Shown here one piece after another: positions 2,275 to 35,691 of a DNA stretch of 35,886 nt (positions within the stretch are counted from its first letter, which is position 1; each line of letters starts with the position of its first letter). The stretch comes from a virus: IMG/VR virus record IMGVR_UViG_3300023239_000020, positions 1 through 35,886 of that record. One strand, given 5' to 3'. A program made the position numbers and the translations under genes. The notes under the pieces were generated by a model, which saw only the letters and a program-made list of their open reading frames with translations, searched no databases and was not told where the DNA came from.

Positions 2275-2675
2275 TGGCCTCTCGACCAAAGATAATCTGG
2301 AACGGCGGGCGAGTGCTGGGCAAGACTAGAAAGCAGATCGAGACCAACATGGGTATGGTCGTTCAGATGCTTCGAGGCGATGTCATTATCTCGATTAACG
2401 TCAGTCAGCCAACTACAGGCGCCGGTAAGGCAAGGCGTGGCTCAGACCCATCTAAGCCAGGCGAGCCTCCCAAGCGAGTAGAGGGCGACCTTGTGCGAAG
2501 CATAGTAGCCGATGTAAGATCAACGCCAAGCAGGATCACGGGAGCATACGGGTCCACCCAGGGAGCTAAAGCAAAAGCTCTAGAGTTCGGAACAAGATTC
2601 ATGGCGGCTCGACCATTTTTACGTCCCCCGCTATTAAGGCGAAGAAACGATATTAAGAGGATCTTGGCAAAGTGA
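2274..2675 (+). CDS. HK97 gp10-like neck/tail component
   Basis: The 133-aa protein has the family hallmarks: a helical N-terminus, a central SDPSKPGEPPKRVEGDLVRS, then ALEFGTRFMAARPFLRPPL, corresponding to the 'E.GT....RPFlrPA' signature of HK97-gp10-like tail components (PF04883). These proteins act at the head-tail joining interface. ATG at 2274 shares a base with the previous stop, and the end overlaps the next GTG at 2672 by 4 nt. Length and position match the family. Confidence 0.85.
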   Translation: MASRPKIIWNGGRVLGKTRKQIETNMGMVVQMLRGDVIISINVSQPTTGAGKARRGSDPSKPGEPPKRVEGDLVRSIVADVRSTPSRITGAYGSTQGAKAKALEFGTRFMAARPFLRPPLLRRRNDIKRILAK

Positions 2676-3088
2676 GTGCGTTAAGCGCAGCTTTTTACAC
2701 AGCCTTATCAAACGATGTCACGCTGACGAACGGCCTGTCTACATGGGATGGCCGTCCAGCAATATTTACTTATGAGCCTGTACCTAAAGATGTTGAATTG
2801 CCGTATGTGATAACAGCGGGTGAGATAGCCGACGAACCGAATGACTCGAAGAATTCTACAGGGCGACGAATTATCCGCGATATTCGCGTCTACTCTTCAC
2901 TGTCAGGTTCAACTGCTGCCATCGAGTCTCTGGCCGAAAGGATCAGGACACTGTTCCACAGGAGTAGCATTTCAATCACAGGGTTTAAAACCGTTTACGT
3001 TAATGTATCTGGACCACGCATAGCCGACGAACAAGACGTCTATGGCCGGATATTATCAGTGGAATTGTTGTTAAGTGATACACAGTAA
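2672..3088 (+). CDS. Tail terminator / tail completion protein (DUF3168-like)
   Basis: It uses a GTG start at 2672 inside the previous gene's stop (GTGAG). The 138-aa product starts with a helix (ALSAAFYTALSNDVTLTN), then has IFTYEPVPKDVELPYVITAG, then an alternating strand/helix region (RRIIRDIRVYSSLSG, AAIESLAERIRTLF), matching the DUF3168-type tail completion fold that caps the tail tube and contacts the neck. It lies directly before the tail-tube genes, as expected. Confidence 0.75.
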   Translation: MSALSAAFYTALSNDVTLTNGLSTWDGRPAIFTYEPVPKDVELPYVITAGEIADEPNDSKNSTGRRIIRDIRVYSSLSGSTAAIESLAERIRTLFHRSSISITGFKTVYVNVSGPRIADEQDVYGRILSVELLLSDTQ

Positions 3089-3106
3089 GCTCATGGGAGA
3101 TTCATC

Positions 3107-3763
3107 ATGGCCGAGAAAGGCTCAGCGTTTCTATTAAGAAAGGCGCCTGCTGGCGCGACAGTAACATTTACGAACGGAACCAATACCTGTAATTACACGG
3201 CTCACGGAATGGCAAACGGTGACGCGATCATCTTTACCAATTCTGGCGGAGCCGTTCCGGCCGAGCTAACCCCTAGCAAGATTTACTATGCGGGCGACGT
3301 TTCGACCAACGCATTTACTATCCACCTGACCAAGGCTACCGGAATTTCCGGAGCCAGCGATGTCGCGATTACCGACAACGGATCTGGCACGACTACCGGC
3401 AAGATTATGACAACGGTCGCCGGCATGAGATCCACGGCTTTTACTGTCACGGCGTCCGAGGTAGACATCACGACAAAGGATTCCGATTCCTTGTGGCGCG
3501 AACTTCAAGCCGCGAATGGCGAGGTTACAATCAGCGTTTCCGCTTCTGGAATATTCCAAGACGACGTAGGGCTGGCCGCAATGCGGGTCGATTCTATATC
3601 TCGATCTCTCGAAACTTATGGCTTGCAGTTTGAATCAGGCGATGAGTATTGGGGATTGTTTCAATGCACTAGCTGCGAGCATGCTGGTGAAAACAATGAC
3701 GCTTTGACTTACTCGATATCTATTGAGTCGGCTGGTGTCATTACTGCCATCAACAACGTATAG
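3107..3763 (+). CDS. Major tail tube protein, copy A, with inserted N-terminal beta domain
   Basis: This is a 218-aa protein. Residues 105-218 (AGMRSTAFTVTASEVDITTK, LWRELQAANGEVTISVSASG, FESGDEYWG, CEHAGE) align closely by eye with the 130-aa protein encoded next, and both fit the TP901-1/lambda-type tail tube fold. The first 10 residues also match (MAEKG-x-x-FLL). Between them, residues about 14-104 hold an extra domain, including YTAHGMANGDAIIFTNSGGA and a following Tyr-Tyr, typical of surface beta modules of phage tail and fibre proteins. It has its own ribosome site (ATGGGAGA upstream of 3107). It may be a minor or decorated tube subunit. Confidence 0.8.
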   Translation: MAEKGSAFLLRKAPAGATVTFTNGTNTCNYTAHGMANGDAIIFTNSGGAVPAELTPSKIYYAGDVSTNAFTIHLTKATGISGASDVAITDNGSGTTTGKIMTTVAGMRSTAFTVTASEVDITTKDSDSLWRELQAANGEVTISVSASGIFQDDVGLAAMRVDSISRSLETYGLQFESGDEYWGLFQCTSCEHAGENNDALTYSISIESAGVITAINNV

Positions 3764-3774
3764 GAGGTCACATC

Positions 3775-4167
3775 GTGGCTGAGAAAGGATTATCGTTTTT
3801 ACTGAAGCTCGCTGGAACTGCTATCGGCGGAATGAGAACAACTTCCATGACCATCAATGGCGGAGAAGTTGATATTACCAATAAGGACTCCACGAGTCAG
3901 TGGCGAGAGCTGTTGCCTGCCGCCGGAGAAGTCAGCATGACGATCTCTGCGTCTGGAGTCTTTATTGACAACAACAACGTCATCACTGTTCGCGGTTATG
4001 TGATCGCAAGAACGCTGAATGAATTTGTTCTTGAGTTCGAGTCTGGCGACACCTATACAGGGGATTTTCAGGTGACGAATTGTGAGCATGCCGGTGAATA
4101 TAACGGCGAGGTTACATACTCGATTACTCTGGAGAGTTCAGGGGCTATTGCTTTCGCGTCCGCTTAA
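3775..4167 (+). CDS. Major tail tube protein, copy B
   Basis: A 130-aa tail-tube protein starts at GTG 3775. A perfect AGGAGG at 3762-3767 overlaps the stop codon of copy A (TAGGAGG). Its sequence (MAEKGLSFLL, GGMRTTSMTI, EVDITNKDSTSQWRELLP, FESGDTYTGDF, CEHAGEYNGEVTYSITLESS) is the compact version of the preceding gene without the inserted domain. It probably forms the bulk of the tube. The strong ribosome site suggests high expression. A long gap with a hairpin follows. Confidence 0.85.
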   Translation: MAEKGLSFLLKLAGTAIGGMRTTSMTINGGEVDITNKDSTSQWRELLPAAGEVSMTISASGVFIDNNNVITVRGYVIARTLNEFVLEFESGDTYTGDFQVTNCEHAGEYNGEVTYSITLESSGAIAFASA

Positions 4168-4198
4168 TGGCGGTTAAGTAGGATTTGACTTTTAGGCA

Positions 4199-4238
4199 GC
4201 CGATAACGGATTAGCACAGATTGCGCTCCGTTATCGGC
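4199..4238 (+). terminator. Perfect 12-bp hairpin between tail tube and tail chaperone genes
   Basis: The left arm GCCGATAACGGA (4199-4210) and right arm TCCGTTATCGGC (4227-4238) are exact inverted repeats with a 16-nt loop. A-rich sequence follows rather than a T tract, so it is not a classical intrinsic terminator. It lies in the only sizeable gap of the tail block (4168-4263), just after the most highly expressed genes. It may attenuate or process transcripts so that tube protein outnumbers downstream tail proteins, or protect the upstream mRNA end. The arms contain the CCGATAA core seen in the promoter operators, so protein binding is also possible. Confidence 0.5.
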
Positions 4239-4263
4239 AATCAAAAAACAAAAGGACACGACA

Positions 4264-4614
4264 ATGGTAAACAAAAGGCGAGGCGAAACCGAGTTCACTA
4301 CAGGCGGTGAGACCTACGTTATGTGCATGACGCTTGGCGCGATGGCTGAAATAGAGGACGTCTTTGAGCTGGATTCTATTAGCGACCTGGGCGATGCGTT
4401 CGTAGACGGAAAGATTAAGACTAAAAAGCTGATCGGGTTACTCGGCGCTTTAATTCGAGGCGGCGGAACAGACATTACAAATGAAGAGATCGGTAATTTC
4501 GATCTTGATGCGGTCGAGGCTTTTGGCTCGGCGATGGAAGCGATCAACATTCAAGGCGGTGAGTCGAACAGCCCAAAACCCAAACCGAGGGCAAAGAGGA
4601 AGCCGAGGAAGTAG
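4264..4614 (+). CDS. Tail assembly chaperone, upstream part (lambda gpG / GTA gp10 analogue)
   Basis: The 116-aa protein (GGETYVMCMTLGAMAEIEDV, then GDAFVDGKIKTKKLIGLLGA, then LIRGGGTDITNEEIGNFD) matches GTA-gp10-type tail assembly proteins. These bind the tape measure protein during tail assembly and are absent from the mature tail. It ends in a Pro/Lys-rich tail and a TAG at 4612-4614. In that tail, codons AGC CCA AAA contain the slippery heptamer C CCA AAA (4572-4578), which would redirect some ribosomes into the -1 frame and make the longer fusion product. Confidence 0.85.
   Translation: MVNKRRGETEFTTGGETYVMCMTLGAMAEIEDVFELDSISDLGDAFVDGKIKTKKLIGLLGALIRGGGTDITNEEIGNFDLDAVEAFGSAMEAINIQGGESNSPKPKPRAKRKPRK
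4572..4578 (+). promoter_or_regulatory. Programmed -1 ribosomal frameshift site CCCAAAA
   Basis: The heptamer is in the correct X XXY YYZ phase relative to the chaperone frame: codons AGC|CCA|AAA read as C CCA AAA, re-pairing as CCC AAA after slippage. The frame entered is exactly the one encoding the conserved downstream chaperone part. No strong downstream stem-loop was identified by eye. Confidence 0.75.
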
Positions 4615-4829
4615 AGGCTTTTAGCTGGAGCTCGATGATGGAGCTTGGACTCGGCAAGCTACTATGGAGCCCATCGGTATTTTGGAGCTCCACCATTATC
4701 GAGATAGGAGCGGCGGCAGAGGGTCTGGCTAAGTTTCACGGCAGTAAAGATGAGGACGGCGATTCAACAGAGCAGCAACCGTTGAGTACAGATGAGTTCG
4801 TTGCATTAAAGGAGAAGCTAGGTGGCTGA
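4572..4829 (+). CDS. Tail assembly chaperone, -1 frameshift extension (gpGT 'T' part / GTA gp11-like)
   Basis: The -1 frame is open from 4563 to the stop at 4827-4829 and encodes VEAFSWSSMMELGLGKLLWS and PSVFWSSTIIEIG, matching the 'W..LM.lGLG.L..sP..FW.mT..El' pattern of GTA gp11-type proteins. An ATG exists at 4635, but it has no good ribosome site and would cut off the conserved Trp region. Slippage at CCCAAAA would give a 188-aa fusion (105 residues in frame 0, then 83 in -1). In lambda the T part recruits tail-tube subunits. The end overlaps the tape measure start by 8 nt. Confidence 0.8.
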   Translation, partial: PKTQTEGKEEAEEVEAFSWSSMMELGLGKLLWSPSVFWSSTIIEIGAAAEGLAKFHGSKDEDGDSTEQQPLSTDEFVALKEKLGG

Positions 4830-7167
4830 TAATATCGGGGAGGTAGAAGTTGAGATATTTGTGGATGTCGCCAGATTTGCGCGCCAACTCGACAAGGCAG
4901 CCAAAGCTACCGAGAGGATGGCCGCGCGAATTGCCAAGACTCTTGACAGAGTCGGTAAGAAATTTGTCGATATTGGCAAGAAGATCAGCGCGGGGATCGG
5001 ACTACCAGTTGCCGCAGCCGGAATTCTGGTCGCAAAATCCGCCGCAACATTCGAGCAATCATTTACAAAGATCGAGGCGCTTGTAGGCGTCAGCCGGAAG
5101 CAGGCTCAAGGCTGGCGGGATGACATCCTTGCGCTAGGACCAGCGACAGGCCGAGGACCCAAGGAGCTAGCTGAGGGCATGTTCTTTGTTACGTCCTCTG
5201 GCTTTCGAGGGGCCGAGGCGTTGGAGGTTTTAACCGCTTCTGCCAAGGCCTCTAGTATTGGGCTAGGACTTACCGCTGACGTTGCCAAGGCGGTCGGCGC
5301 AACCGTGAACACATACGGTAAAGAAAACTTGAATGCTGCTGACGCGACAGGGATTTTAATCGGTGCTGTTCGAGAAGGGCAGTTTGAAGCGTCCAAGTTC
5401 GCCGGTTCTATTGGTCGGGTAATTGCTGTGGCCGCATCGCTGGGCGTTGACTTCGATGAGGTGTCGGCAGCGGTTGCGGGTTTGACTAAGGGCGGCTTAG
5501 AAGTCAATCAAGCCATCACGCAGACCGAATCCGTTTTAGCTTCTTTTCTAACAGTGACCCCTACTGTTCGCAAAGAGCTTGCAGGGATGGGCATAGATGC
5601 AGACTCGCTAAAAGATTCCTTGTCTACAAAGGGCCTGCTAGGCACGATCCAGGATATTAAAAAAGCCGCCGACGCAAAAGGAATTGGTTTAGAAAAGATA
5701 TTCCCGGAGCGAGAGGCGCTAAAAGCGGTGCTGTCAATAACAGGCAAGAATGCCGAAGAGATCGAGGGGATCTTTAAGCGCTTAGCTAAAGATGGCGTCG
5801 GATCTCTCAATCAGGCGTTTAAAATTACAGCCGAAGATTCCGCTTTTAGATTCAACCAGTCTCTGGCCGCTATGGAGGCGGCCGGCATTAGATTAGGCGC
5901 GACGGTTTTACCTCCGCTGATCAGCCTTATTGAAGCGCTGGCAGGCTGGGTCGAGACCGCTGCCGAAGCGTTCGGGAATTTAGATACAAAAACCAAAGCG
6001 ATCATTATCGGCTTCGCTGGAGCGCTGGTTGTGCTTGGTCCCTTACTCGCGACTATCGGTTTTATGACTATCGGGATTGGCGGGCTAACTGTGGCTTTTG
6101 CTTGGATGGCTACAAAGATTGTCGCCGGAGCTGCATTAATTAGGCTCGCGTTTTTGACTATGACGTCTGGCCCGGTCTTATTAGGCGCAGCGATAGCAGG
6201 ACTGGTAGGCGGGTTTATCGTATTCAAGACCACTATCGTGGAGCTTGCCAAAGGCATCGTAACTGCCATGAAGGTTCAGTTAATTAACAACTTTAACGAT
6301 AATATCGTAATTCCATTCAAGACAATGCTGGCGGGTATGCTCGACGCGATTCCGGATGGGCTGAAGAAAGCGATTAGAGAAGCAACGGGATTTGATCTTT
6401 TAGGCGCTATCACCATTCCAGAAAAAAGCGGAGGCAGCAAAGAGGCTGACGGGATTCTTTTTGATGCGTTTCGCAAAGCCGGCGAGAACGCAAAGAAGGA
6501 TATGGCCAACTTCTCTCTGGTGATGGGTCAAATGTGGACCGACGCAAAGGCCATGATCGGATTCGGCGAAGGCGGCGCAGGGACCAAACTGCTCGATGAT
6601 GCCGAGGCTGCTTTTAACAAATTGCAGCAGCTCGTCTCGGGAGGCTCGGGAGGCGGCGGAGAGCCGCCTGTCCCTGATGAGCTATCGGAAGGCTGGGAGG
6701 AAGCCGGGGCGGCTATCAGGGATAATTTTGGAGCAAGTCTAGAGGATGCCATCCTAAAAATGAAGTCTTTCGGCGATGTTGGCCGAGCGGTTTTGCAGGA
6801 CATATTGCGCCACATGCTTCGCTTAATTGTAATCGCTCCTATACTAGAAGGGCTGACGGGCGGAGCATCCACGGTATTCGATGCCCTCACTGGCGGCAAG
6901 GCGGGCGGCGGGCGAATTAACGGACCCACTCTAGTCGGCGAGCGCGGCCCGGAGATCGTTAATCCAGACGGGCCTGCTACCGTAATGAATGCTATGAATT
7001 CTAAAAAGGCTATGGGCGGTGGCGGCGTTAATGTAATTCAGAACATTACATTCGCTGTCGATGTAAAGAATAGTGTTCGGGCTGAGATCGTAAACGCGGC
7101 GCCACTTATTGCGGATATGGCGTCCGGCCAAGTGTTCGATCAGATGCAAAGACAGGGACGAAGATAA
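4822..7167 (+). CDS. Tape measure protein (TP901 family)
   Basis: This 781-aa protein starts at GTG 4822, preceded by GGAGAAGC. It begins with an amphipathic helical segment (RFARQLDKAAKATERMAARI), followed by the PhageMin_Tail (TP901) core, including 'FEQSFTKIEALVGVSRKQAQ' and 'TAKASSIGLGLTADVAK'. Hydrophobic stretches lie near residues 390-475. A Gly-rich linker (about residues 605-620) leads to the C-terminal GPTLVGERGPEIVNPDGP motif typical of these proteins. It sets tail length and is ejected with DNA. At about 0.15 nm per residue it predicts a tail of roughly 115 nm. Many minus-strand ORFs opposite it are shadows. Confidence 0.9.
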   Translation: MADNIGEVEVEIFVDVARFARQLDKAAKATERMAARIAKTLDRVGKKFVDIGKKISAGIGLPVAAAGILVAKSAATFEQSFTKIEALVGVSRKQAQGWRDDILALGPATGRGPKELAEGMFFVTSSGFRGAEALEVLTASAKASSIGLGLTADVAKAVGATVNTYGKENLNAADATGILIGAVREGQFEASKFAGSIGRVIAVAASLGVDFDEVSAAVAGLTKGGLEVNQAITQTESVLASFLTVTPTVRKELAGMGIDADSLKDSLSTKGLLGTIQDIKKAADAKGIGLEKIFPEREALKAVLSITGKNAEEIEGIFKRLAKDGVGSLNQAFKITAEDSAFRFNQSLAAMEAAGIRLGATVLPPLISLIEALAGWVETAAEAFGNLDTKTKAIIIGFAGALVVLGPLLATIGFMTIGIGGLTVAFAWMATKIVAGAALIRLAFLTMTSGPVLLGAAIAGLVGGFIVFKTTIVELAKGIVTAMKVQLINNFNDNIVIPFKTMLAGMLDAIPDGLKKAIREATGFDLLGAITIPEKSGGSKEADGILFDAFRKAGENAKKDMANFSLVMGQMWTDAKAMIGFGEGGAGTKLLDDAEAAFNKLQQLVSGGSGGGGEPPVPDELSEGWEEAGAAIRDNFGASLEDAILKMKSFGDVGRAVLQDILRHMLRLIVIAPILEGLTGGASTVFDALTGGKAGGGRINGPTLVGERGPEIVNPDGPATVMNAMNSKKAMGGGGVNVIQNITFAVDVKNSVRAEIVNAAPLIADMASGQVFDQMQRQGRR

Positions 7168-7784
7168 TGGCTATTAGCTATCCTAGAACGTTGCCATCTA
7201 CACCAGGCATAAAGAGCAATCGATTTGGCTTGGTGTTTAATATAGATACGATGACGTCTCCCATTAGCAAGCAAGCTAACCACGACATTAAGGCGGGCCA
7301 TCGCTGGGAAGGGATGTATACATTTCCACCGATGAGTTCGAGTCAGGCCAGAGTCTGGAAGGCCTGGTTCGCCACGATGTATGGCCCTGCAAAAACTTTT
7401 TACGCTTTCGATCCTGACGTCAGATCGCCCAACGGGACTGCAAGCACTGGAAGCGACACACCTTTAGTTAAAGGCGCAAGTCAGACAGGAAACTCTATTA
7501 CCACTGACGGGTGGCGAACTAGCAGCTCGGGGCTGTTGCTTCCAGGCGATCCCGCCCAAATAGGCGGAGAGCTAAAAATTATAACTGAGCAGGTTGATTC
7601 TGACGGGTCTGGCAATGCAACCGTAAACTTTATGCCGGAGCTACATGTTAGCCCGGGCGATGACACTGCCATCGTTTTCGATAACCCTGTCGGGACATTT
7701 ACTATAGAAGGTTTAAGCGTTGATTGGGAAAGCGATCAGTTTGGAGTCCATGACTTTGCTTTCGCTTTTGTGGAGAAATTTTAA
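7167..7784 (+). CDS. Distal tail / minor tail protein (GTA gp12-like position)
   Basis: The 205-aa protein follows the tape measure gene with a 1-nt overlap. It starts MAISYPRTLPSTPGIKS, and has AGHRWEGMYTFPPMSSSQA and RVWKAWFATMYGPAKTFYAF, resembling distal-tail proteins in which a beta-barrel ring ends the tail tube. The C-terminal part (about residues 100-205) is a second beta-rich region ending HDFAFAFVEKF. In GTA-like tails this slot encodes gp12 (DUF2460-type) or Dit. The exact family is uncertain; the structural role is well supported by order. Confidence 0.65.
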   Translation: MAISYPRTLPSTPGIKSNRFGLVFNIDTMTSPISKQANHDIKAGHRWEGMYTFPPMSSSQARVWKAWFATMYGPAKTFYAFDPDVRSPNGTASTGSDTPLVKGASQTGNSITTDGWRTSSSGLLLPGDPAQIGGELKIITEQVDSDGSGNATVNFMPELHVSPGDDTAIVFDNPVGTFTIEGLSVDWESDQFGVHDFAFAFVEKF

Positions 7785-8452
7785 TGACGGATCGCGCCAT
7801 AGCTTCGGCCGCAATAACGGAATCAGACGCTCTGGAATATTCATCTTTTGGATTTGTCGCGCTGAACTTTGACGATGATCCTGTTTATGTCTGGACAGGC
7901 ACTCGGCCATTTACCGCCACTCTTCCAACTGAGTCCTCGCACAGCTATTTGGGCATAGGGGCGCTAGGATCTATCGACGGAATATTGGAAACCTCTGACG
8001 GCTCCAGCAACGGCGTGAAGCTACAGATGAGTGGAATTGCTAACGGCTTACTATCGAATGCTCTAGGAGAAAATTACCAAGGAAGATCAGCCAAGGTGTG
8101 GCTGGTCTTCCTCGACAGCGACGGCGCGATAGTTCCAGATCCTATAATGCTATTTAGCGGCCAGATGGATGTAATGAATTTGGTTGACGGCGACAGTCAG
8201 GGTGCTATAGAGATCTTGTGTGAAAGCCGCGATCAGTTGTTAAAACGAACCTCTGAAAGTCTTCTGACTGACGAGGAGCAGCAGCGAGTCTATCCTGGTG
8301 ACCTCGGACTTGAGTTTGTGATGGAGCTTCAGAATAAAGTTTTGGCATGGGGCGACAAGACCACTGGAGGAGGCGGGGGCAGAGCCGGGGGCAGAGGCGA
8401 AATAGGCAATGGGGGCAGAGAGGATGATCTCAGGGAGGAATTTACTAGATGA
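7784..8452 (+). CDS. Tail-tip hub-like protein (GTA gp13-like position) with Gly-rich C-terminus
   Basis: The 222-aa protein has SFGFVALNFDDDPVYVWTG, LGSIDGILETSDGSSNGV and ALGENYQGRSAKVWLVFLD, the pattern seen in DUF2163-like tail proteins between the distal tail and the cysteine peptidase genes. The last 30 residues are a Gly/Arg-rich tail encoded by three near-repeats of GGGGGCAGAG (8376-8420), unlike the rest of the protein. The stop overlaps the next ATG (8449) by 4 nt. Confidence 0.65.
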   Translation: MTDRAIASAAITESDALEYSSFGFVALNFDDDPVYVWTGTRPFTATLPTESSHSYLGIGALGSIDGILETSDGSSNGVKLQMSGIANGLLSNALGENYQGRSAKVWLVFLDSDGAIVPDPIMLFSGQMDVMNLVDGDSQGAIEILCESRDQLLKRTSESLLTDEEQQRVYPGDLGLEFVMELQNKVLAWGDKTTGGGGGRAGGRGEIGNGGREDDLREEFTR

Positions 8453-8901
8453 TTACACGCAAATCCGACTGGCCGGAACTGCTGGCAAAAGGAGTCGCCG
8501 AGGCTAGCCATCGCTCCTTTGAATTCGGCGCTCACGATTGTTGCATGTTTACCAGTAGTCTTGTTCTGGCTTTTAGCGGAACAGATCTGGCGGCTAAGCT
8601 GCGAGGCTATAAGTCAAGAGCCGGCGCCATCAAGACATTAAAAGAAAAGGGCAGCGGTACCTTGCTAAGAACGATGGGAAAAGTAATGGCTGATCACGGC
8701 TGCCAGAGAGCGACTCACGTAGGCTTACTGAAGCGGGGCGACGTGTGCATGGCGAAGGTCTCTATGCCAGAGTCGGTTGACGAGTCCGGCGTCGAGGAAT
8801 GGGCGGTCGGTGTCTGTCTTGGAGAGACTGCGGTATTTGCTTCGGACGGAGTGATTCAAATACCCATGAAGGAAGTTAGGCGAGGCTGGCACTGTGGCTA
8901 A
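8449..8901 (+). CDS. NlpC/P60-like tail peptidase (DUF6950-like)
   Basis: The 150-aa protein contains FEFGAHDCCMFTSSLVLAF near residues 25-43. This corresponds to the 'F.wG..DC..fa' active-site motif of DUF6950/NlpC-P60-type proteins of phage tails, with Cys at the DC position as candidate nucleophile. A later histidine (THVGLLKRGDV) fits the 'hvgi...GDv' part of the fold. Such proteins sit in the tail tip and are thought to cut peptidoglycan at infection. Its place directly upstream of the J-like gene is typical. It overlaps both neighbours. Confidence 0.7.
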   Translation: MITRKSDWPELLAKGVAEASHRSFEFGAHDCCMFTSSLVLAFSGTDLAAKLRGYKSRAGAIKTLKEKGSGTLLRTMGKVMADHGCQRATHVGLLKRGDVCMAKVSMPESVDESGVEEWAVGVCLGETAVFASDGVIQIPMKEVRRGWHCG

Positions 8902-11900
8902 GCTTATAAAAGCAGTTATCGTTATAACGGCGGTTGTCTTAATTGCGATTACCGCCGGACCCGAATTTGCCTTAACGTTTATCGGTAAGCTGTTTGTTGC
9001 TGCCGGTGTCGCGATAGTCAGCGATGCTCTAGCGCCAAGCGCAAATACTGCCGCTATAAGGCAGGGAGGGTTAAAGCAAGAGCTAAAATCATCCGTCGCT
9101 TCCAGAACTATAGTTTATGGAAGCGCTCGATTGGGCGGGACGATTATTGCGGCGTTCACTTCCGGCACAGACAACAAGTACTTGCATCTAATTAAGCACG
9201 CCGCCTCTCACGAGATCGAGAGCTTTGATCAATTTTTTATTAACGATACCGCCGTAACAGTCGTTGACGACATGGTTATTTCTGGAAAGTATGCAGGGAA
9301 GGTCCGGATACTGACTGGCCTAGGAACTGCCGACCAGACTGCCGACGCGACTCTGGTATCCGAGATCACTCAATGGACAACGGATCACAGGTTAAGAGGC
9401 TTGGCCTGGTTCGCGGTTAGGTTCGAGTTTGATACTGAAGTCTATACTCAGGGCCGGCCGGTTGTTACCGCAAAGATAAGCGGCGCAAAAGTGATCGATA
9501 CTAGAACGTCGGCTACCGAATTTAGCAATAATCAGGCGTTGGTCCTTAATGATTATCTAACTAGAGGCGCGGGATCTGCATGGGACTTAGGGTGCAGGGT
9601 TCCTGTGGCCGAGCTGAACACCACTAACATTAATGCCCAGGCGAATATTTGTGATGAGAACGTCGCCTTAAAGGGTGGCGGGTTCCAGAAGCGGTATACA
9701 TGCGACGGCAGAGTTCTAGCTACCGCTTCTCGGGACGTAAACATTAAAGGAATTCTGTCTGCTGCGGCTGGACAGTTGATTTACCAGAGTGGCGTATTTA
9801 ATCAGTATGCTGCGGCAGCGCCTACAGTTTCTATTCAGCTAGACGATGATGATTTGAGAGGGCCTTTCAGTCTTGCGACTCGGCGACCGATTGGCGAAAG
9901 AACAAATCGTGTTATAGGCGTTTTTCTAGATGCCACATCCGACTTGCATGAAGAAAATAATTATCCGCCGGCCGTGGATTCGGCCGCTGTCACGGAAGAC
10001 GGCGAGGTGTTCGAGAAGCGCCTGGATCTGCCTTATACGCAAGACCCGATAAGAGCGCAGCGGATCGCTCAGATCCAGCTTAGAAGAGCGCGGGCGCAAA
10101 TGTCAGCTACCTACCCCTGTAAGATGAAGGGCATACAATTGCAGGCATGGTCTACCGTTGGTATTACTAGCGGGAAGTACGGGTTTGTCGCTGAGGAATT
10201 CCAGATCTTTAAATGGAACTTCAGCAAGTCGGGTGGCGTTGACTTGGAGCTTCGCGAGCACAACGCCGCCATTTATGCCTGGGACGAATCGACAGACGAA
10301 GGGACACCCTTGGTGGGCGCAGATCCAACAATCGCAGACGGCACTATAAAAATAGCGCTTACTGGCCTTTCAGTTGCAGCCGTCAACTTAACCGAAAACG
10401 GAACCAAGATCCCCGTTTTGGTCGCGGCATGGACCGCTCCGTCAGCGCTAGTTAGGAGTACGGATGTTCAGTGGAAGAGAAATGCCGATAGCGATTGGGA
10501 GGTTGGTCCGGCGGTGTTAGATCCTTCTAATCCTAGGGCGGTCATTACAGGGTTGCTCCCTGCGGAAAGCATAGACATAAGAGTCCGACACGTCACCTTT
10601 TTTGGGATTCTCGGGGATTGGGTATCGGCTCTAGATAACACCGTGGGCGCTGAGTTCACTGCCAAAAACACCGTCAGCGTCAATACCAGATCAGCTTCTG
10701 ATATTAGTGAAACAATTGATATCACAACCGAGGATGGAAACCAACTAACAACTGAAACAGGGACTCCATTTAGTCTACAAACCGTTACTGACGTGAGCCT
10801 TGAACTTTTTAATGTTGACGTCAGCGTTAGTACAATCGCAATTGACCTCGCTGCCTTAGCTATTTCCAATGCCGCTTTACAGCAAGCAATCATTGATTTA
10901 ACTTCTGGCGTTAGTGATATCTATCTGCAAGCAACCAAACCTGTCGCGGGTGTGGATGGCATTCCAGACCCGATCCCCCCGTTCAGTCGCTGGTATGACA
11001 CGAATGATAATAACTCGCCTTACTATTTTGACACAGATCTAGACGACTTCATTTCGTTTGAAGACGGAAGGATAGCTATTAACGCGAACGACATCCTCAA
11101 TTTAACAGGAAGGCTTGATGATGGGACAACGGGTTTAATTGCTTCGTTTGATGCTATCCAGATTCTGGATGGAAATATCATCACCCTAGATGGTCTCATT
11201 ACCACCAATGCAACAAACCATACCAGTCTATCCGTAGGCTTGTTTAAAGTTGAGGAAGAAGACGGTTCAATTGTTGAGATGGAAAGTGGTTCTGAATTAG
11301 ACCTTGAGCCTCTTTCTGGGGTGGCTGTTGGAGCAGCTCAAGCAGCTCAAACACTTGACGCCAGAGTAACATCAAGCGAGGATGACATAACATCTCAAGC
11401 GTCTTTATTAACCTCGCTTGATGTTGAAGTAAACGGGAAGGCTTCGTCTGCTGCTTTTGATTTGGTTCAGACTACAGTTAATGATTCTTCAACTGGTGTC
11501 ACTGCGACATCAGAAGCTCTTGGATTGCTTAGCTCAACGGTTAATGATGAAGTTACAGGTTTATCAGCTAAGGCTTCGTCTGCTGCTTTTGATTTGGTTC
11601 AGACTACAGTTAATGATTCTTCAACTGGTGTCACTGCGACATCAGAAGCTCTTGGATTGCTTAGCTCAACGGTTAATGATGAAGTTACAGGTTTATCAGC
11701 TACAGCACTTGTTGCTAACAATGCCTTTACCAATGCTGGTATTGCAGATGGTAAAGCTGTAGCGGCTGCTGGTACTGCCAACTCAGTTAGTACCACAGTG
11801 GATGGTCATACTACAACGATTGGAGAACATACAACTTCTATTAATGGTATTGAGGGAGAGAAGACTTTATTCATTGATGCTGATGGAAATATTGCTGGCT

Positions 11901-19068: not shown

Positions 19069-19515
19069 TCAGCCGCGCGGTTCTCTCCGCTCGTCTCTAA
19101 GCCGATAGTTTTCGGTTGGCGTCGTCCATTGCAAGTTATCGACACAATTATGTTTGCGGTTTGCGTCTTGGTGATGGACGTGGGTCTGAGTGTACGGTTT
19201 TGGATTGGGGATAAAAGCAAGAGCGACCAGCCTGTGAACATATTGCTTTACACCCCTGCCCATCTGAACCATCACATAGCCCTCGCGTTTAATAAACGGG
19301 CTAAGGCATCGCCAGACTCCGGCCCTGGAAAGAGACCTGACAGATCCTTGATCGCTAACCTGATAGCCGGAAAACCCTGGGATGTCTAGCCACTCCTCAG
19401 ACGGACAGCCTGTTTCGTTGTACTCGTAAAGCGTTGTCTGGGATTTACAGGAACTGCAAAGCGGCTGGCGATTAGGCGCGAGGTTGTCGCAAATAGAGAT
19501 GTCGCATGACTTCAA
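19069..19515 (-). CDS. HNH homing endonuclease with NUMOD4 domain
   Basis: The 148-aa protein uses a TTG start at 19515 that overlaps the TGA of the neighbouring broken gene (TTGA). Residues about 38-62 (EEWLDIPGFSGYQVSDQGSV) match NUMOD4, a DNA-binding module of homing endonucleases. Then YVHRLVALAFIPNP, HVHHQDANRKHN and NLQWTTPTENYRLRD form the HNH_3 nuclease site. The first 30 residues hold an extra CSSC motif. Such enzymes cut sequences lacking the gene and spread by repair. It lies at the 3' end of a disrupted gp88-like gene. Confidence 0.85.
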   Translation of the reverse strand: MKSCDISICDNLAPNRQPLCSSCKSQTTLYEYNETGCPSEEWLDIPGFSGYQVSDQGSVRSLSRAGVWRCLSPFIKREGYVMVQMGRGVKQYVHRLVALAFIPNPKPYTQTHVHHQDANRKHNCVDNLQWTTPTENYRLRDERREPRG

Positions 19516-20140: not shown

Positions 20141-20407
20141 TCACTCTACGGATGCCTCTGAAATGCTGAGGCATAGTGCAGGGGGTTCGACGCCTAGAAT
20201 CTGGCATCGCTTGTTGAACGACTCAATCGCGAGTACAGCTTGGGTGTGGTAGTCGCCATCAAATAAAGCGCCTACCGGCGCTCTTCTGACGATCTCCATG
20301 TTCTGGGTGTGGATGACCCATCCCGATTTAGTCTCGGTCAGAATCGCGCGAAGAGGGGCGTTTATCTCGTCGCCCTCCTTGATCTCGGATCTGCTGATAA
20401 CGTCCAT
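20141..20407 (-). CDS. 88-aa hypothetical protein
   Basis: A compact alpha/beta sequence (PLRAILTETKSGWVIHTQNM, then HTQAVLAIESFNKRCQILGV). ATG overlaps the stop of the upstream 55-aa gene (TAATG). No family recognised. It belongs to the operon that starts at the 21065-21093 promoter. Confidence 0.6.
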   Translation of the reverse strand: MDVISRSEIKEGDEINAPLRAILTETKSGWVIHTQNMEIVRRAPVGALFDGDYHTQAVLAIESFNKRCQILGVEPPALCLSISEASVE

Positions 20408-20574
20408 TACAAGCCGCGCTTTTTGTTCTTCTTTGCCACGTAGTTTTTGATCTCGGCTGCGTCATCTGGATGTGCGCGAACCTCGATCCGCTTTAGTCCT
20501 GTGGCGACCTGCTTCTCATTGAAGCGACGTTGCGCTTCGTTATTGGCTTTCTGTGCTGGCGTCTGCTTTGCCAT
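20407..20574 (-). CDS. 55-aa basic protein with a strong ribosome site
   Basis: ATG at 20574 is preceded by TCCTAGGAGGACGTCA, a near-perfect ribosome site. The product begins MAKQTPAQKANNEAQRRFNE and continues TGLKRIEVRAHPDDAAEIKN, ending in a Lys-rich tail. The 'G..RI.V..HP.D...IK.Y' pattern resembles short ribbon-helix-helix-like phage proteins, so DNA binding is possible but unproven. Its stop overlaps the next ATG (TAATG). Confidence 0.75.
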   Translation of the reverse strand: MAKQTPAQKANNEAQRRFNEKQVATGLKRIEVRAHPDDAAEIKNYVAKKNKKRGL

Positions 20575-28907: not shown

Positions 28908-29798
28908 ATGCCAGTATATGTTCAACAAGGACTAGAGCAACAGTCGCAAAGTTTTGAAGCGTTTCCGGCGGGTGATTACAATCTAATTATCTCGGATATT
29001 GCAGACGGCCCGTTCGGCAACGGCGCAGGCCACAAGGTTGACATCACTCTTGAAGTGATAGACGGCGAGTATAAGGGGCGCAAGATCTTCGACATGATCG
29101 CTCTGGTACATGTCAATCCGGAATGGGCGCAAGGCACGCAGGCTCGGCTAGATGCTATATGCGCGGTTGCCGGATTCCCATCCCTCGATGCGTTTAGTCA
29201 ACTGCTTAACACGATGGTCCGAGCTAAAATTTTTATCGAGAAAGACAAGTCGGGAGAATACGATCCCAAGAATAAAATCGATAAGATTCTCGGTCCAGCA
29301 GTAGCGGGCGCTGCTCCGGCGTCTATGGCTGCTCCGGCGCCGGCCCCTCCCACTCAGATGTCCATGCAACCGCCGTCGCCTAACACGACGGTAGCGCCTC
29401 CCGCTCAGATGACCATGCAGACACCCGTTCAAGCTGCCGCGCAATCTGTGACGCAACCTGTGACGCAACCGGCCATGCAGCCGCCTGTACAGGCGACTAT
29501 GCAACCGCTTGTTCAACCGGCCATGCAACCTCCCGTGCAGCCGCCTCTTCCCGCACAGACGGTCATGCAGCCGCCTGCTCCACCTGCTCCAGTTGCTGCG
29601 CCCGTTCCGCCTGCTCCGGTGGCCCGACAAGTCGCGATGGCACCTACCGGATATGACGATGGTTCCACGTGGGACACTGCGGTCTACACCGATACTGGCG
29701 AGTTCGTCGCGGTCGGCCAGCCGGGTTATGCGGCCCCGATAAACACGGTTGCGGCTCCGGCCCCAGACGATATCTTCGACGACGACATCCCGTTCTAG
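28908..29798 (+). CDS. Single-stranded DNA-binding protein (DUF669-like) with acidic SSB tail
   Basis: The 296-aa protein starts after a GAGGAGGC site. Residues 1-125 (SFEAFPAGDYNLIISDIADG, then KVDITLEVIDGEYKGRKIFD) match DUF669-type OB-fold proteins. Residues about 130-245 are a low-complexity Pro/Gln/Met/Ala linker with repeats such as QPAMQPPVQ. The extreme C-terminus is DDIFDDDIPF, the same type of acidic tip with a final Pro-Phe that bacterial SSB uses to bind partner proteins. It therefore coats single strands and probably recruits host or phage replication factors. A large antisense ORF opposite the repeats is a shadow. Confidence 0.85.
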   Translation: MPVYVQQGLEQQSQSFEAFPAGDYNLIISDIADGPFGNGAGHKVDITLEVIDGEYKGRKIFDMIALVHVNPEWAQGTQARLDAICAVAGFPSLDAFSQLLNTMVRAKIFIEKDKSGEYDPKNKIDKILGPAVAGAAPASMAAPAPAPPTQMSMQPPSPNTTVAPPAQMTMQTPVQAAAQSVTQPVTQPAMQPPVQATMQPLVQPAMQPPVQPPLPAQTVMQPPAPPAPVAAPVPPAPVARQVAMAPTGYDDGSTWDTAVYTDTGEFVAVGQPGYAAPINTVAAPAPDDIFDDDIPF

Positions 29799-30130: not shown

Positions 30131-30369
30131 TGGGAACCAAAACAGATCCGGGAGAGTTTGACTGCTACGGATCGGCAAAAGACGACGAGCCTATTTTTAT
30201 TTTAAGGGCTAGCGACGAGCAAGCGCCGGATAGAGTTATAGATTGGGCGAATGATTACAGAGCGAAAAAGATGGCAAACAGTAAATGGACGCTTAGGTCT
30301 CGAGCTAAGTATGACGAGGCATTGGGTTGCGCCAAAGCCATGAGACGGTGGCTTAGAAATAACCGATAA
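30130..30369 (+). CDS. 79-aa hypothetical protein
   Basis: The start at 30130 is preferred because it overlaps the upstream stop (TGATG) and follows AGAGGA. The product starts MGTKTDPGEFDCYGSAKDDE, contains DEPIFILRASDEQAPD, and ends in a basic helical part with WLRNNR. The 'dEP.FiLrasD..Ap..v..Wa' pattern is common in small phage proteins of unknown role. It overlaps the helicase start by 1 nt. Confidence 0.7.
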   Translation: MGTKTDPGEFDCYGSAKDDEPIFILRASDEQAPDRVIDWANDYRAKKMANSKWTLRSRAKYDEALGCAKAMRRWLRNNR

Positions 30370-31427
30370 TGCCGCTACGAAACTACCAGCAGACGGCCTC
30401 CGACTTTACTATTCGAGATATCGAAAACAAGATTCTTCGATGCCTTATCGTTGCGCCGACTGCCTCCGGTAAGTCGCATATTATTGCCGACATTGCAAAA
30501 CGTCGAAAGGGTCTTACTCTTTGCGTGACTCACTCTCATCACTTGGTATCACAGAACGCTGATAAGATCCGAGCGGTAGGTTTGAGGCCTTCGTTCTGGT
30601 GCTCCGCGCTGGGGCCTAAAGACGATACTGGCGATGTTATTATGGCGTCGATTCAGTCGTTGTTTCGCGACGTCGATCTTATCTCGCGGGCAGACACAAT
30701 TATCGTTGATGAGTGTCATCGAATTTCAACAGAATCAACTCAGTACGGCGCGCTACTAGAGCACATGCGGGACGATGTTCCCATAATCGGGTTGACGGCT
30801 ACACCGTTCCGTCTCGGGTCTGGCTGTCTGATTAACGGCAGCGACAAAATTTTCGACAGGGTGAGTTACGAGATTGAGATTCCGTATCTTATCGAGAATC
30901 AATACCTTGCCCCTGTCTCGAACCGATTTCCCAAGATAGACAACAACGCATATTTAAACCGACACAAGCTGACGGTTCGTCGAGGCGAGTACACGACAGA
31001 ATCGATCCGTGATGAGCTAAGCGATTCTAAGATACAGTCTCAGGCCAGCCTAATACTCTCAGCATTTAAAGCGATGGGCCGGAATAAGGTCATGGTCTTT
31101 GCATCGAGTATTGTGCATTGCCAGAAGTTGCACCAGCAGATGAACCTAATGGGAATGCCGACGACTATCGCTCATTCCAAGATGGACGCAGAGCGATGCG
31201 AGGCCAACGTCCTAGCTTTCCGACGAGGTAAATATCAAGCCATGATAAACATGGAAATGCTGACTACTGGCTTCGACGATCCGCCGCTTGATTTTATTGT
31301 CCTGGCCCGGCCTACCAAATCGGCGAGCCTGTATATTCAGATGGTTGGCCGAGGAATGCGTATAGCTCCCACCCTCTCTGTATGTTATAATGAGTATCTT
31401 GAAAAGCGAAAGGAGAAGATGTTGTGA
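30369..31427 (+). CDS. Superfamily 2 DNA helicase, N-terminal part (gene split after motif VI)
   Basis: The 352-aa frame has motif I APTASGKS (residues 29-36), motif II DECH (114-117), motif III TAT (143-145), a RecA2 region with KVMVFASSIVHCQKLH, and motif VI QMVGRGMR (324-331). After P334 (codon ending 31370) the expected 'gKTD...LDfaG...' is missing and is replaced by an 18-residue unrelated end that includes the ribosome site of the HNH gene. Such phage helicases usually continue for about 200 more residues. The missing part is found at 32197 onward. Whether this truncated product works is unknown; both RecA-like lobes are nearly complete. Confidence 0.85.
   Translation: MPLRNYQQTASDFTIRDIENKILRCLIVAPTASGKSHIIADIAKRRKGLTLCVTHSHHLVSQNADKIRAVGLRPSFWCSALGPKDDTGDVIMASIQSLFRDVDLISRADTIIVDECHRISTESTQYGALLEHMRDDVPIIGLTATPFRLGSGCLINGSDKIFDRVSYEIEIPYLIENQYLAPVSNRFPKIDNNAYLNRHKLTVRRGEYTTESIRDELSDSKIQSQASLILSAFKAMGRNKVMVFASSIVHCQKLHQQMNLMGMPTTIAHSKMDAERCEANVLAFRRGKYQAMINMEMLTTGFDDPPLDFIVLARPTKSASLYIQMVGRGMRIAPTLSVCYNEYLEKRKEKML
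31383..31391 (+). promoter_or_regulatory. Extended -10 promoter element (TGTTATAAT) in front of the inserted HNH gene
   Basis: A perfect TATAAT (31386-31391) preceded by TGT (31383-31385) lies 33 nt before the HNH start, just after the last conserved helicase codon. No -35 match is present, as is usual for extended -10 promoters. It suggests the HNH gene carries its own promoter. Confidence 0.55.
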
Positions 31428-32038
31428 TTGTGATAGATGGAATTGAGTATAAAGAAGTGATGTCTTGGTTGCCTGACAGGCGCAAGAAAAGCACACGGGC
31501 TGTCGCGGCAGTTTCTGCTAACGGTGTGGCTATCAGACTCCCTTATACTATGTGGTCCAAAAAGAACAAATGTTATTCGTCTTACCGCCTACACATTTAC
31601 AAGCAGGGAACTAACAGAGGTAAGAATCGGCTTGATCCTATCTCGTGGAAGGGGACGTACAGATACGTGGATATTCGAGGGAAGGCTTATTCGGTTCATC
31701 GGCTGGTGGCTCAGGCTTGGCTTCCGAACGACGATGGTAAACCGCAGGTCAATCATATTAACGGTGTTCGCGATGACAACCGAGCCGCCAACCTAGAGTG
31801 GGTGACTAATGACGAGAACATGTCTCACGCTATATCGAAAGGGCTTTATGTCGTATTGAAAGGAGAAGATACGGCGCACCATAAACTAACCGAAGATCAG
31901 GTTATGGAGTTCAAGCTATCGATCAAGGACGGGATCTATCGGGGTCAGTTGGCGCATTTTGCTAAAAAATTCGGGGTCGGCATTACTACCATGAGCGAGA
32001 TTAAAGCAGCCCGCTCATGGTCGCATGTCACAGCATGA
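31424..32038 (+). CDS. HNH homing endonuclease inserted in the helicase gene
   Basis: The 204-aa protein starts at GTG 31424, with AAGGAGAAGATGTT as ribosome site, and overlaps the truncated helicase stop. Residues about 84-135 form HNH_3: AYSVHRLVAQAWLPNDDG, then VNHINGVRDDNRAANLEWVT. The C-terminal part (HKLTEDQVMEFKLSI, then LAHFAKKFGVGITTMSEI) is a helix-turn-helix typical of phage homing endonucleases and likely contacts the target DNA. There is no room for a group I intron core between the helicase and this gene (about 50 nt). It probably spreads by cutting uninterrupted helicase alleles. Confidence 0.88.
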   Translation: MIVIDGIEYKEVMSWLPDRRKKSTRAVAAVSANGVAIRLPYTMWSKKNKCYSSYRLHIYKQGTNRGKNRLDPISWKGTYRYVDIRGKAYSVHRLVAQAWLPNDDGKPQVNHINGVRDDNRAANLEWVTNDENMSHAISKGLYVVLKGEDTAHHKLTEDQVMEFKLSIKDGIYRGQLAHFAKKFGVGITTMSEIKAARSWSHVTA

Positions 32039-32946
32039 AAGTTTATTTTGTTCTCTCGTCGGCAGACACTAAGGAGACGGTGATCAAAGAGCTGGCCGGA
32101 ATGCACGAGAACGATGACGAGCTTATTGTAATGACTCCGAATGAGGCTGCTGGATTCCCTTTTGGCGACAGCATAGTGATGAGAGGCGTTTCACCCAGCA
32201 AAACAGATCTCAAGGTGTTAGACCTGGCCGGCTTAGTTGACGAGCATGGACCGATTGATATGCCCGACATTGAGGGTCAGGAGACAATCCCGCGAGGCAC
32301 TAAAGCACCAGAAGAAATTCCAGAGGCTGAGGTTGATGCCGGACTCGATGGCGACACGCCCGAGGAGGTGACGATCCGGGTCCTCAGAAAAGAGCAGGAC
32401 ATCAGCCTCGAAGTCCATCAAGAGATCGACATTCTCGCCGGCAAGCCCTGGGACTCGCTGGTCGATCCAGATATGGCACAGGGATCGTTTATCAGGATTG
32501 CCCGCGCAACGTTACGCCCTGCCAAGACTCGGAACAATGAGACAACCTACATCCTGCAAGTCTATGGCCGCGACGCTCGATCAGGAGGAAAGGTTTCGTG
32601 CCGGCAATACTTCAACTTTTTTGTCGGCTCTAAGTACGCGAGGAAAAAGGCGCGAGATTCCTTCCGCCATTTATTTAAGCTAGAGGAGTTGCCGCTGTTC
32701 TTCTATCAGCACGAAGGATCTCCGGTGTCTCCGTCAGGCGAGTTGTTGATGGAGGATCGAGAGTACATTAGGACCGTGGATAGGCGAGCGAATGAGTTGC
32801 TCAAGTTCAAGATGGTAAAAATTCTAAACAAGAAGTCGGGCTATCCAGAAATGGAACAGTACGAAAAGCCACCGACGACAGGAGAGATAGATGTTACAAA
32901 GGTCAGCGGAATGGAATCGCACCCGAGCCACGTCAGTAACGGCTAG
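32035..32946 (+). CDS. Chimeric protein: unknown N-terminus plus helicase C-terminal part
   Basis: I chose ATG 32035, which overlaps the HNH stop (ATGA), over an in-frame ATG at 32017 inside the HNH gene. Of 303 aa, residues 1-54 (MKVYFVLSSADTKETVIKEL, then MTPNEAAGFPFGDSIVMRGV) are a well-formed alpha/beta segment of unknown origin. Residues 55-80 (SKTDLKVLDLAGLVDEHGPI) are the conserved helicase block that normally follows motif VI. Residues about 140-230 (SFIRIARATLRPAKTRNN, YFNFFVGSKYARKKARDSFR) match the C-terminal domain of the same helicases. N-part 1-334 plus residues 55-303 would make a normal helicase of about 583 aa. Confidence 0.7.
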   Translation: MKVYFVLSSADTKETVIKELAGMHENDDELIVMTPNEAAGFPFGDSIVMRGVSPSKTDLKVLDLAGLVDEHGPIDMPDIEGQETIPRGTKAPEEIPEAEVDAGLDGDTPEEVTIRVLRKEQDISLEVHQEIDILAGKPWDSLVDPDMAQGSFIRIARATLRPAKTRNNETTYILQVYGRDARSGGKVSCRQYFNFFVGSKYARKKARDSFRHLFKLEELPLFFYQHEGSPVSPSGELLMEDREYIRTVDRRANELLKFKMVKILNKKSGYPEMEQYEKPPTTGEIDVTKVSGMESHPSHVSNG

Positions 32947-33766
32947 CGGATGTTCGGCAGTGCTGGACCTGTCGCCCTGGATTAGCAGGAAGGATTACCT
33001 CGAGCAAAAAGCTTTCGAAAGCGTTTACGGCGTCGGCCCTCGTCCCTCGAACGTAGCGATGGAGGACGGTATTATGTGGGAGCCGGCTGTTATCGAAATG
33101 AGCAAGCCGTTTGTTCTCGGATTCAATCCAAACCTGTACTACGCTGACAACTCCGGTAAGGCGGTCAATGGCGTATCGACTGAGTACCAGCGGCATCCAG
33201 AAATTCCTTTCCTCGGCGCCTCGCCTGATAAGCTTGTTTATGACAGGTCCGTCGCGGTTCCCGTTCAGCGGCAAGACGGATTGTTCGATTACAGAGACCT
33301 GTTGGTTTCTGGCTTAGAGGTTAAGAAGCAATTCCGCATGTCTAAGCGCGGACCCGAGGCGTGGTTCCCGTGCAAAGAGGTTGTCTATAATTACTGGTGC
33401 CAGTGTCAATTATCGATGGAAGTATTCGACGTGCCTCATTGGGATTTTTTTGTCGTAGGTCAGCAAATAACAAGTGATGAAACGTTGCCGGACGGATCTC
33501 CGTCTCACGTTGCCGCCTGGTCTCAGGGCGAGAGAGTCTATAGGGACAAGCAGTGGTTTGAAGATTCGTTGGTAGAGTTCGTGAAATTCATGGACGAGCT
33601 TGAGGCGACGATTGCCGAATTAAAAGCGAGCGAAACAGGCGGCGAGCCATGCCCGACGATCCCCATAATGCCGGCGCCAGAGGTAAGTCGGGCTGCTCAT
33701 ATCGAGGGAGAGTGGGACGGTGTAATCGAGGACGAGGAATGGGACGGAGTCATTGAGGACATTTGA
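32891..33766 (+). CDS. YqaJ-type viral recombinase exonuclease
   Basis: The 291-aa protein starts at ATG 32891 after ACAGGAGAG, overlapping the chimeric gene by 56 nt. It has the PD-(D/E)xK layout of YqaJ/lambda-exonuclease-like proteins: RSAEWNRTRATSVTASG near the start, GIMWEPAVIE (Glu64), FLGASPDKLV (Asp113) and SGLEVKKQF (Glu143, Lys145), then YNYWCQCQLSMEVF. It digests one strand of double-stranded ends so that Sak4 and SSB can anneal them. The last 18 residues repeat EWDGVIED twice, making an acidic tail. Confidence 0.85.
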   Translation: MLQRSAEWNRTRATSVTASGCSAVLDLSPWISRKDYLEQKAFESVYGVGPRPSNVAMEDGIMWEPAVIEMSKPFVLGFNPNLYYADNSGKAVNGVSTEYQRHPEIPFLGASPDKLVYDRSVAVPVQRQDGLFDYRDLLVSGLEVKKQFRMSKRGPEAWFPCKEVVYNYWCQCQLSMEVFDVPHWDFFVVGQQITSDETLPDGSPSHVAAWSQGERVYRDKQWFEDSLVEFVKFMDELEATIAELKASETGGEPCPTIPIMPAPEVSRAAHIEGEWDGVIEDEEWDGVIEDI

Positions 33767-33995: not shown

Positions 33996-35211
33996 AAAAG
34001 AAAGCTCGACTCCAAAGAATCGCAAGATGAGAGTTGCCTCGATAATCCCTGACTCGAAAAACGCTAGGACTCACAGCGAGGCCCAGGTTGAGCAGATAGC
34101 GGCTAGCATAAAAAGGTTCGGTTTTAATAACCCTATACTGATAGACGAGAACAACGTCATCATTGCTGGGCACGGACGCTTCCTCGGAGCCATGAAGCTT
34201 GGCTTGAAGTCTTTGCCGGTTAGAGTTTTAAGTCACATGAGCAATGCAGAAAAGAGAGCCTATGTCCTGGCCGATAACCAGATCGCTCTCAATGCGGGAT
34301 GGGATTTGAATCTGGTAAAGTTTGAGTTGTTGTCGCTGCAGGTAGAGGATTTTGATTTATCGCTTACTGGATTCGGTGAAGATTTTGTTGCGGATCTGCT
34401 GCGAGAAGAAACCGAGGGCCTGACTGATGATGATGATGTGCCCGAGGCTCCGAAGTTACCCGTGGTCGTGCTTGGCGATATCTGGGTGTTAGGCAACCAT
34501 AGATTAATGTGCGGCGACAGCACAAGCATTGACGCGGTCGAGAGGCTTATGGATGGTGGAAAGGCTGACGTGCTATTTACCGATCCTCCTTATGGGATTG
34601 ACTTTGCGCCGCAGCGCGGGACTCATGGAAAGATATTGAATGACGCGCTGGCCGGCTCAGCGTTCGAGGATTTTCTTGCTAGTGTCTTTTTTTGTGCCGA
34701 TAGCGTGATGAAGCCGAACACTTATGGGTTTGTATGGACGGGGTGGTCTAATATCGGGGCTTTTGAAAAAGCTATTCAGCCGTTCTTTAAGATTCAAGCT
34801 CTACATATTTGGGTTAAAAATAATTTCGGTATTGGCTACTATTCTAGGCCAAAACATGAGCCGTTCTATTTGTGCTTGAGGGGTAAGCCTGATCGTCCGG
34901 TCAAGGCTCCTGCTGATGTATGGGAGTTTGCCAAGGTTCACAAGACGATCCATTCATGCGAAAAGCCGGTTATGTTGATTGAGAGCATCCTGGACGCTTA
35001 TCACAAAAACGGCACTGTCCTTGATTTTTTCGGCGGCTCCGGCTCAACACTAATCGCCTGCGAAAAGACAGATCGTCAGTGTCGAATGATGGAACTAGAT
35101 CCGACCTATGCCCAGGTCATCCTGCAGCGCTGGGCGGACTTTACTGGCAGAGATCCTGTCCGAGAAGCTGACGGCAAAGCGTTTAGCAAAATCAAGAGAA
35201 AGAAAAAATAG
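33988..35211 (+). CDS. ParB-like domain fused to DNA methyltransferase
   Basis: Residues 1-95 are a ParB/Srx-like domain (VEQIAASIKRFGFNNPILID, then IIAGHGRFLGAMKLG). Residues about 160-400 are an adenine/cytosine-N4-type methyltransferase with LFTDPPYGIDF (DPPY at 199-202) and the SAM-binding DFFGGSGSTL near residue 345. DPPY suggests N6-adenine methylation, but the base and target site cannot be read from the sequence. No matching restriction gene is nearby, so it is an orphan enzyme that probably protects phage DNA or controls timing. This fusion is common in phages. Confidence 0.88.
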   Translation: MTEKESSTPKNRKMRVASIIPDSKNARTHSEAQVEQIAASIKRFGFNNPILIDENNVIIAGHGRFLGAMKLGLKSLPVRVLSHMSNAEKRAYVLADNQIALNAGWDLNLVKFELLSLQVEDFDLSLTGFGEDFVADLLREETEGLTDDDDVPEAPKLPVVVLGDIWVLGNHRLMCGDSTSIDAVERLMDGGKADVLFTDPPYGIDFAPQRGTHGKILNDALAGSAFEDFLASVFFCADSVMKPNTYGFVWTGWSNIGAFEKAIQPFFKIQALHIWVKNNFGIGYYSRPKHEPFYLCLRGKPDRPVKAPADVWEFAKVHKTIHSCEKPVMLIESILDAYHKNGTVLDFFGGSGSTLIACEKTDRQCRMMELDPTYAQVILQRWADFTGRDPVREADGKAFSKIKRKKK

Positions 35212-35570: not shown

Positions 35571-35691
35571 CCCTGTCTACTTCAACGGCCGGTGCGACAT
35601 CTGTCAGGCACTATCTGTCGATCACGAAGAGGAGTGCGATCCTCTCGCGGTTCTGGCTACTCAATGCGAGATACGCGGGAGCTTACTCTAG
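35563..35691 (+). CDS. 42-aa putative zinc-binding protein, possibly frameshifted
   Basis: ATG 35563 lies inside the end of the previous gene. The product begins MSSPVYFNGRCDICQALSVD and ends at TAG 35689-35691. CDIC and two later Cys residues could bind zinc. In the +1 frame an open stretch continues past this stop and encodes more Cys pairs (next entry), so the two may be one broken gene. Confidence 0.5.
   Translation: MSSPVYFNGRCDICQALSVDHEEECDPLAVLATQCEIRGSLL

Follow-up and report, generated by a model that had tools for sequence, protein, structure and literature searches.

What has become of a phage helicase gene whose conserved motifs are shared out over two open reading frames, with a gene for an HNH endonuclease lying between them? 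This question is raised by positions 30369-32946 of the virus record IMGVR_UViG_3300023239_000020, all 35,886 bp of which were analysed and are referred to here as the window. This DNA-repair helicase gene is split by a selfish HNH gene just past its last catalytic motif, and two coding pieces are left. Our preferred reading, to which we give roughly a 70% probability, is that a free-standing HNH homing endonuclease gene split the helicase gene and that the two resulting proteins are likely to reassemble. This kind of event is already known; the helicase gene is newly seen to be split in this way, as far as our literature search reached.

A helicase gene in two pieces

Three plus-strand open reading frames (ORFs), each in a different frame, make up the locus: the helicase N-part at 30369-31427, the HNH gene at 31424-32038 and the C-part at 32035-32946 (or from 32017). 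Both helicase ORFs have open frames with start and stop codons. The native front part, recognised by matches to the RadD model, Pfam and the PDB, covers 30369-31370 on the plus strand. Its 334 residues comprise RecA1 and RecA2 of a RadD-like SF2 helicase through motif VI, and it ends directly after QMVGRGMRIAP. The native back part (32197-32946, plus strand), recognised by a RecA2 profile and by a joined query, picks up with the last RecA2 strand, SKTDLKVLDLAG, and continues with HGPID and the C-terminal region, in a frame that differs from that of the N-part. The break lies between motif VI and the last RecA2 strand. The earlier note had the N-part stop right after QMVGRGMRIAP and the next block begin 823 bp later in another frame; the change of frame was confirmed, the other two details needed correction. 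The N-part runs on for 18 foreign residues (TLSVCYNEYLEKRKEKML) before its stop, and the insert measures 826 bp (31371-32196), assuming a join between RIAP and SKTD. An assembly error is ruled out, since two contigs from other samples carry the identical arrangement at 100% identity; it is unchanged across the three records. Over 13.9 kb the window differs from one contig (G003) solely by eight substitutions, in two tight clusters at 34431-34453 and 35598-35616.

The front part is readily identified. It matches phrog_16 (PHROG 16, DNA helicase, E=2.7e-72), the Pfam families ResIII and Helicase_C, the NCBIfam RadD model (E=1.8e-66) and E. coli RadD in the PDB (E=2.3e-49). Its 224.6 bits do not reach the curated 720-bit RadD equivalog cut-off of NCBIfam, and we therefore call it RadD-like only. 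The C-part alone matches no family model in PHROGs, Pfam or NCBIfam. Judged by its sequence, it is nevertheless the true continuation of the helicase, because joining the halves (RIAP to (S)KTD) raises the score against RadD from 171.5 to 184.2 bits, with an alignment that spans the junction, and that against phrog_16 from 245 to 257 bits. In many phages the alignment of the joined query reaches residue 383-391, and in Achromobacter and Pseudomonas phages residue 491. When six intact helicases were aligned with the joined query, zero residues were missing at the join. A RecA2 profile built from 189 homologues matches the C-part from residue 52 onward only. The full SF2 motif set and the KTD..VLD.AG strand of RadD-like phage SF2 helicases (phrog_16) are present.

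The closest solved structure is that of E. coli RadD (PDB 6jde and 7r7j), with which the alignment crosses the junction once the halves are joined. The phage helicase differs from it in scoring far under the equivalog cut-off and in a back half that lacks the CxxC...CxxC zinc ribbon. Nearly all homologues have this ribbon after HGPID; in the C-part an acidic linker takes its place. The predicted structure of the C-part is poor (mean pLDDT 55.7) and serves as a hint only; a structure search with it gave no fold match at E<=0.001. Inteins were among the top rows from Foldseek (E=0.39), which we took as noise.

How unusual is the interruption? The survey, which was not a census, covered 213 loci at the split point that had been fetched by loose patterns, and 197 of these have motif VI in the expected context. 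Barring contigs that end first, 195 of the 197 read through without a nearby stop, as do seven more loci with the exact QMVGRGMRIAP peptide; the other two belong to a phage relative described below, which we call relative B. The search for intact homologues that the earlier note had proposed thus returned 195 and 7 loci uninterrupted at the split point. Among the approximately 200 homologues a stop at this site is confined to the window phage and relative B, and the survey contained no uninterrupted close relative. The neighbourhood of the helicase looks like a hot spot for HNH and NUMOD genes, since such genes adjoin intact helicases in other phages; they lie directly upstream of intact helicases of the family at L016, L017, L019, L089 and L130.

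Just upstream of the helicase, at 28908-29798, lies an SSB-like gene, the product of which has a linker rich in Pro, Gln and Met and ends in DDDIPF, a typical SSB tail. In RadD the first RecA domain is the one that binds this tail (PMC10238739), a domain that the N-part keeps, and the SSB-like protein is likely the partner of the RadD-like helicase.

The inserted sequence

The insert holds a complete HNH_3 gene as well as 54 codons that are in frame with the C-part and for which no source was found. Its 5′ end (31371-31427, plus strand) encodes the 18 foreign residues and the stop of the N-part and forms the leader of the HNH gene; the first 21 bp are also seen in relative B. The HNH_3 homing endonuclease gene itself (31424-32038, plus strand) starts with GTG and encodes 204 residues that match Pfam HNH_3 (E=8.7e-10) and phrog_59 (E=1.4e-32). 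It looks complete, since its product can be aligned with phage HNH proteins from the HNH core up to the C-terminal SWSHV, where it ends. The core is intact, with conserved H..N..N residues that we take to have the roles of their counterparts in I-HmuI. The closest relatives found are 44-49% identical, come from Bacillus Herelleviridae and are located between genes. Apart from two near-identical contigs, no further carriers of the 5′ end of this cassette were found. The window hosts a second HNH gene on the minus strand (19069-19515), which is 35% identical to the first over 91 residues.

The three ORFs are knitted tightly together. The GTG of the HNH gene overlaps the stop of the N-part as GTGA, and its TGA overlaps the ATG of the C-part as ATGA, which suggests translational coupling. 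An overlap with the nrdA stop is also known for mobE of T4, where it again points to coupling (PMC2988022). An extended -10 and a ribosome site had also been attributed to the HNH gene. The second of these is well founded, with a Shine–Dalgarno AGGAG at 31411-31415, 8 nt 5′ of the GTG at 31424. The first is not: on the plus strand of 36 kb a perfect box occurs once, as TGtTATAAT at 31383-31391, which is close to chance since simple counting predicts 0.55, and no -35 element accompanies it.

The remainder of the insert (32035-32196, plus strand) encodes the new N-terminus of the C-part, a head of 54 residues that we call foreign in the sense that no homologue was found and that it is not a decayed RecA2 copy. 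By the phage's own codon usage the head codes in frame: its signal exceeds that of every off-frame window and ranks at the 66th percentile among real genes. No homologues were found by tblastn in phages, by a pattern scan of IMG/VR or by profile searches; phrog_1090 came up at E=0.11 only and was not confirmed. A model of the head shows a weakly predicted beta-alpha-beta unit of low confidence (pLDDT about 75). Some tblastn alignments from residue 28 prompted the idea of a decayed RecA2 duplicate. This we rejected: the head obtains -1.5 bits with the RecA2 profile, a value reached by 466 of the 1414 shuffles that were scored. The description of the back part as re-fused to an unrelated start of 54 residues therefore holds, by the joined query as well as by the head itself. 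A tentative idea, on which we would place rather low odds, is that the head is an adaptor borne by the element, its start coupled to the HNH stop, which might travel with the cassette, provide the severed back half with a start signal and a small folded unit, and help it bind the front half.

Apparent traces of transfer and the probable fate of the helicase

Two contigs from one sample (3300035698), G002 (10,698 bp) and G001 (25,487 bp), make up relative B; their shared sample, facing ends and matching divergence lead us to treat them as one phage. Outside the tracts described next, B is 65-83% identical to the window in nucleotides. For the helicase outside the tract dS is about 2 on both sides and dN/dS 0.02-0.04 (about 0.04 in the N-part), values that reflect the time before transfer and not selection on the split pieces. 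In G001 the matches to window positions 32670-33612 and 32-9603 (L067, L068) are separated by about 14.8 kb, while the window has 2.3 kb remaining for that interval; probably either some 12 kb are missing from the window record or B carries additional genes at this place.

Against this divergent background two stretches are 100% identical. Upstream, 31266-31391 holds 105 bp of helicase and 21 bp of insert, and G002 ends there; downstream, G001 starts with 32670-32795. Both are exactly 126 bp, they lie at the facing contig ends across the insert, and they tie for the greatest length of any identical run between the two phages, the runner-up measuring 62 bp. Given the divergence next to the tracts, the chance that all third positions are identical is about 1.5e-9 upstream and 2.6e-11 downstream. 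We infer that the 126-bp ends are the pattern left by an assembler at k=127 where two genomes enter and leave one shared tract. The simplest reading is a single tract from 31266 to 32795, which would hold the 826-bp insert with 105 bp of helicase sequence before it and 599 bp after it; 252 bp of this identity is directly visible, 21 bp of it within the insert, with zero differences. What these stretches record appears to be recent homing into a distantly related phage, with co-conversion of some 105 bp of upstream and 599 bp of downstream flank. Flank co-conversion is a known mark of homing (PMC2988022). These tracts, the join test and the lack of any other interrupted homologue agree with the earlier note that an HNH gene was inserted after motif VI. 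G002 also ends near the second HNH gene, at window position 20387, with identity of up to about 97% (20387-20514), and possibly a second exchange took place around this endonuclease gene.

Under the preferred reading, a free-standing HNH gene would have been inserted between the RIAP and SKTD codons at the end of RecA2. The HNH enzyme would nick or cut the uninterrupted helicase gene of a co-infecting phage, and repair would copy the insert and flanking helicase sequence into the cut gene. The split gene would then be expressed as an overlapping cluster of N-part, HNH gene (coupled through GTGA) and C-part (coupled through ATGA), in which the start codon and the first 54 residues of the C-part come from the insert. 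Finally, the two helicase pieces would bind each other and make the enzyme functional again, as is known for Aeh1 NrdA. Given the split, we regard such reassembly as the probable outcome, since the known cases do so (Aeh1 NrdA and the phage 25 polymerase) and all frames are intact, although the C-part is without the zinc ribbon that nearly all relatives have, its model is poor, and intact frames prove little as the transfer is too recent.

The main rival shares the insertion and parts from this account only in its outcome: the helicase would have been lost or changed, with a truncated ATPase as the N-part, a C-part that is drifting or has a new role, and a helicase that the phage can dispense with. 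We hold this to be doubtful, yet better placed than the other alternatives. The split takes away the last strand of RecA2, and the C-part is the piece without the zinc ribbon of nearly all relatives and without a family model; moreover, transfer into or from B was recent enough, with 0 differences over the 252 bp seen, for any decay to remain hidden as yet. Weighing on the other side, the three ORFs are open and neatly overlapping, the head is strongly coding and the arrangement is constant in all three records.

Another alternative concerns the tracts alone, and derives them from ordinary homologous recombination or a chimeric assembly. Recombination is widespread in phages, plain homologous recombination could leave the same tract, and the middle segment of B was not assembled, leaving just the tract ends to be seen. 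We nonetheless consider this unlikely: it is exactly the HNH insert that the two longest identical runs flank, and each of them measures exactly 126 bp and sits at one of the facing contig ends.

Could the helicase still be made from a spliced mRNA, as the earlier note entertained? HNH_3 genes do occur in introns, e.g. I-HmuI in SPO1, and phage ICP1 genes that seemed to be fragmented by HNH_3 genes proved to be spliced (PMC10448857). A group I (or II) intron that carries the HNH gene is improbable here, whatever these precedents. The search of the insert gave no Rfam intron match up to E=10 and no conserved ribozyme core, whereas the SPO1 I-HmuI intron was detected as a control, with limited sensitivity (Intron_gpI, 25.4 bits, E=7e-4, below the Rfam gathering score). 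A ribozyme would have to fit into 53 nt ahead of the HNH gene and approximately 160 nt behind it, the latter behaving as protein-coding sequence, and the RNA folds no better than shuffles (z of +0.3 to +1.1). Least probable by far is a fractured gene in which split-intein pieces flank the endonuclease gene and protein trans-splicing joins the halves, an arrangement that exists (Dassa et al. 2009, cited in PMC3653736) and that would fit the foreign residues on both halves at the break: Pfam, PHROGs and NCBIfam give no intein or Hint match, no split-intein halves were found at the break, the 18-residue tail of the N-part shows no intein start, and a terminal HN/Asn before the junction is missing from the head.

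Likeness to known systems

Returning to a free-standing endonuclease gene and two reassembling proteins, the enzyme itself resembles I-HmuI and related HNH_3 phage homing endonucleases in its HNH core and family. I-HmuI is encoded within a group I intron, whereas the search around the HNH gene of the window detected none. The splitting has its own parallel: Friedrich et al. (2007) reportedly described an nrdA gene in Aeromonas phage Aeh1 that is split by the HNH homing endonuclease gene mobE. In both cases an HNH gene sits within a core gene of DNA metabolism with separately translated halves, the frames overlap or are coupled (as for T4 mobE) and extra residues are found at the break. The window differs in that the host gene encodes a RadD-like helicase, in an HNH_3 member related to Bacillus phage proteins, in the 54-residue head on the back half of the phage helicase, and in that reassembly of the helicase is here our own inference.

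Precedents for pieces that work together are Aeh1 nrdA with mobE, the T4 topoisomerase with mobA and gene 43 of phage 25 (PMC2988022). In the T4 topoisomerase/mobA and phage 25 gene 43/seg cases, as here, an endonuclease gene splits a conserved DNA-replication gene, the product of which still works there (PMC2988022); the split genes are different ones and, for seg, so is the nuclease family.

Few phage genes are known to be split by a homing endonuclease, and a recombination helicase can now be added to them. The locus also bears marks of a natural transfer between uncultured phages, such as are seldom observed. The idea that mobile-element sequence can act as the glue of a broken enzyme has so far been based on the Aeh1 ribonucleotide reductase, and the foreign residues at the break make this helicase a good second case. 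If the head is indeed an adaptor, the element would bring with it a built-in remedy for the gene that it breaks.
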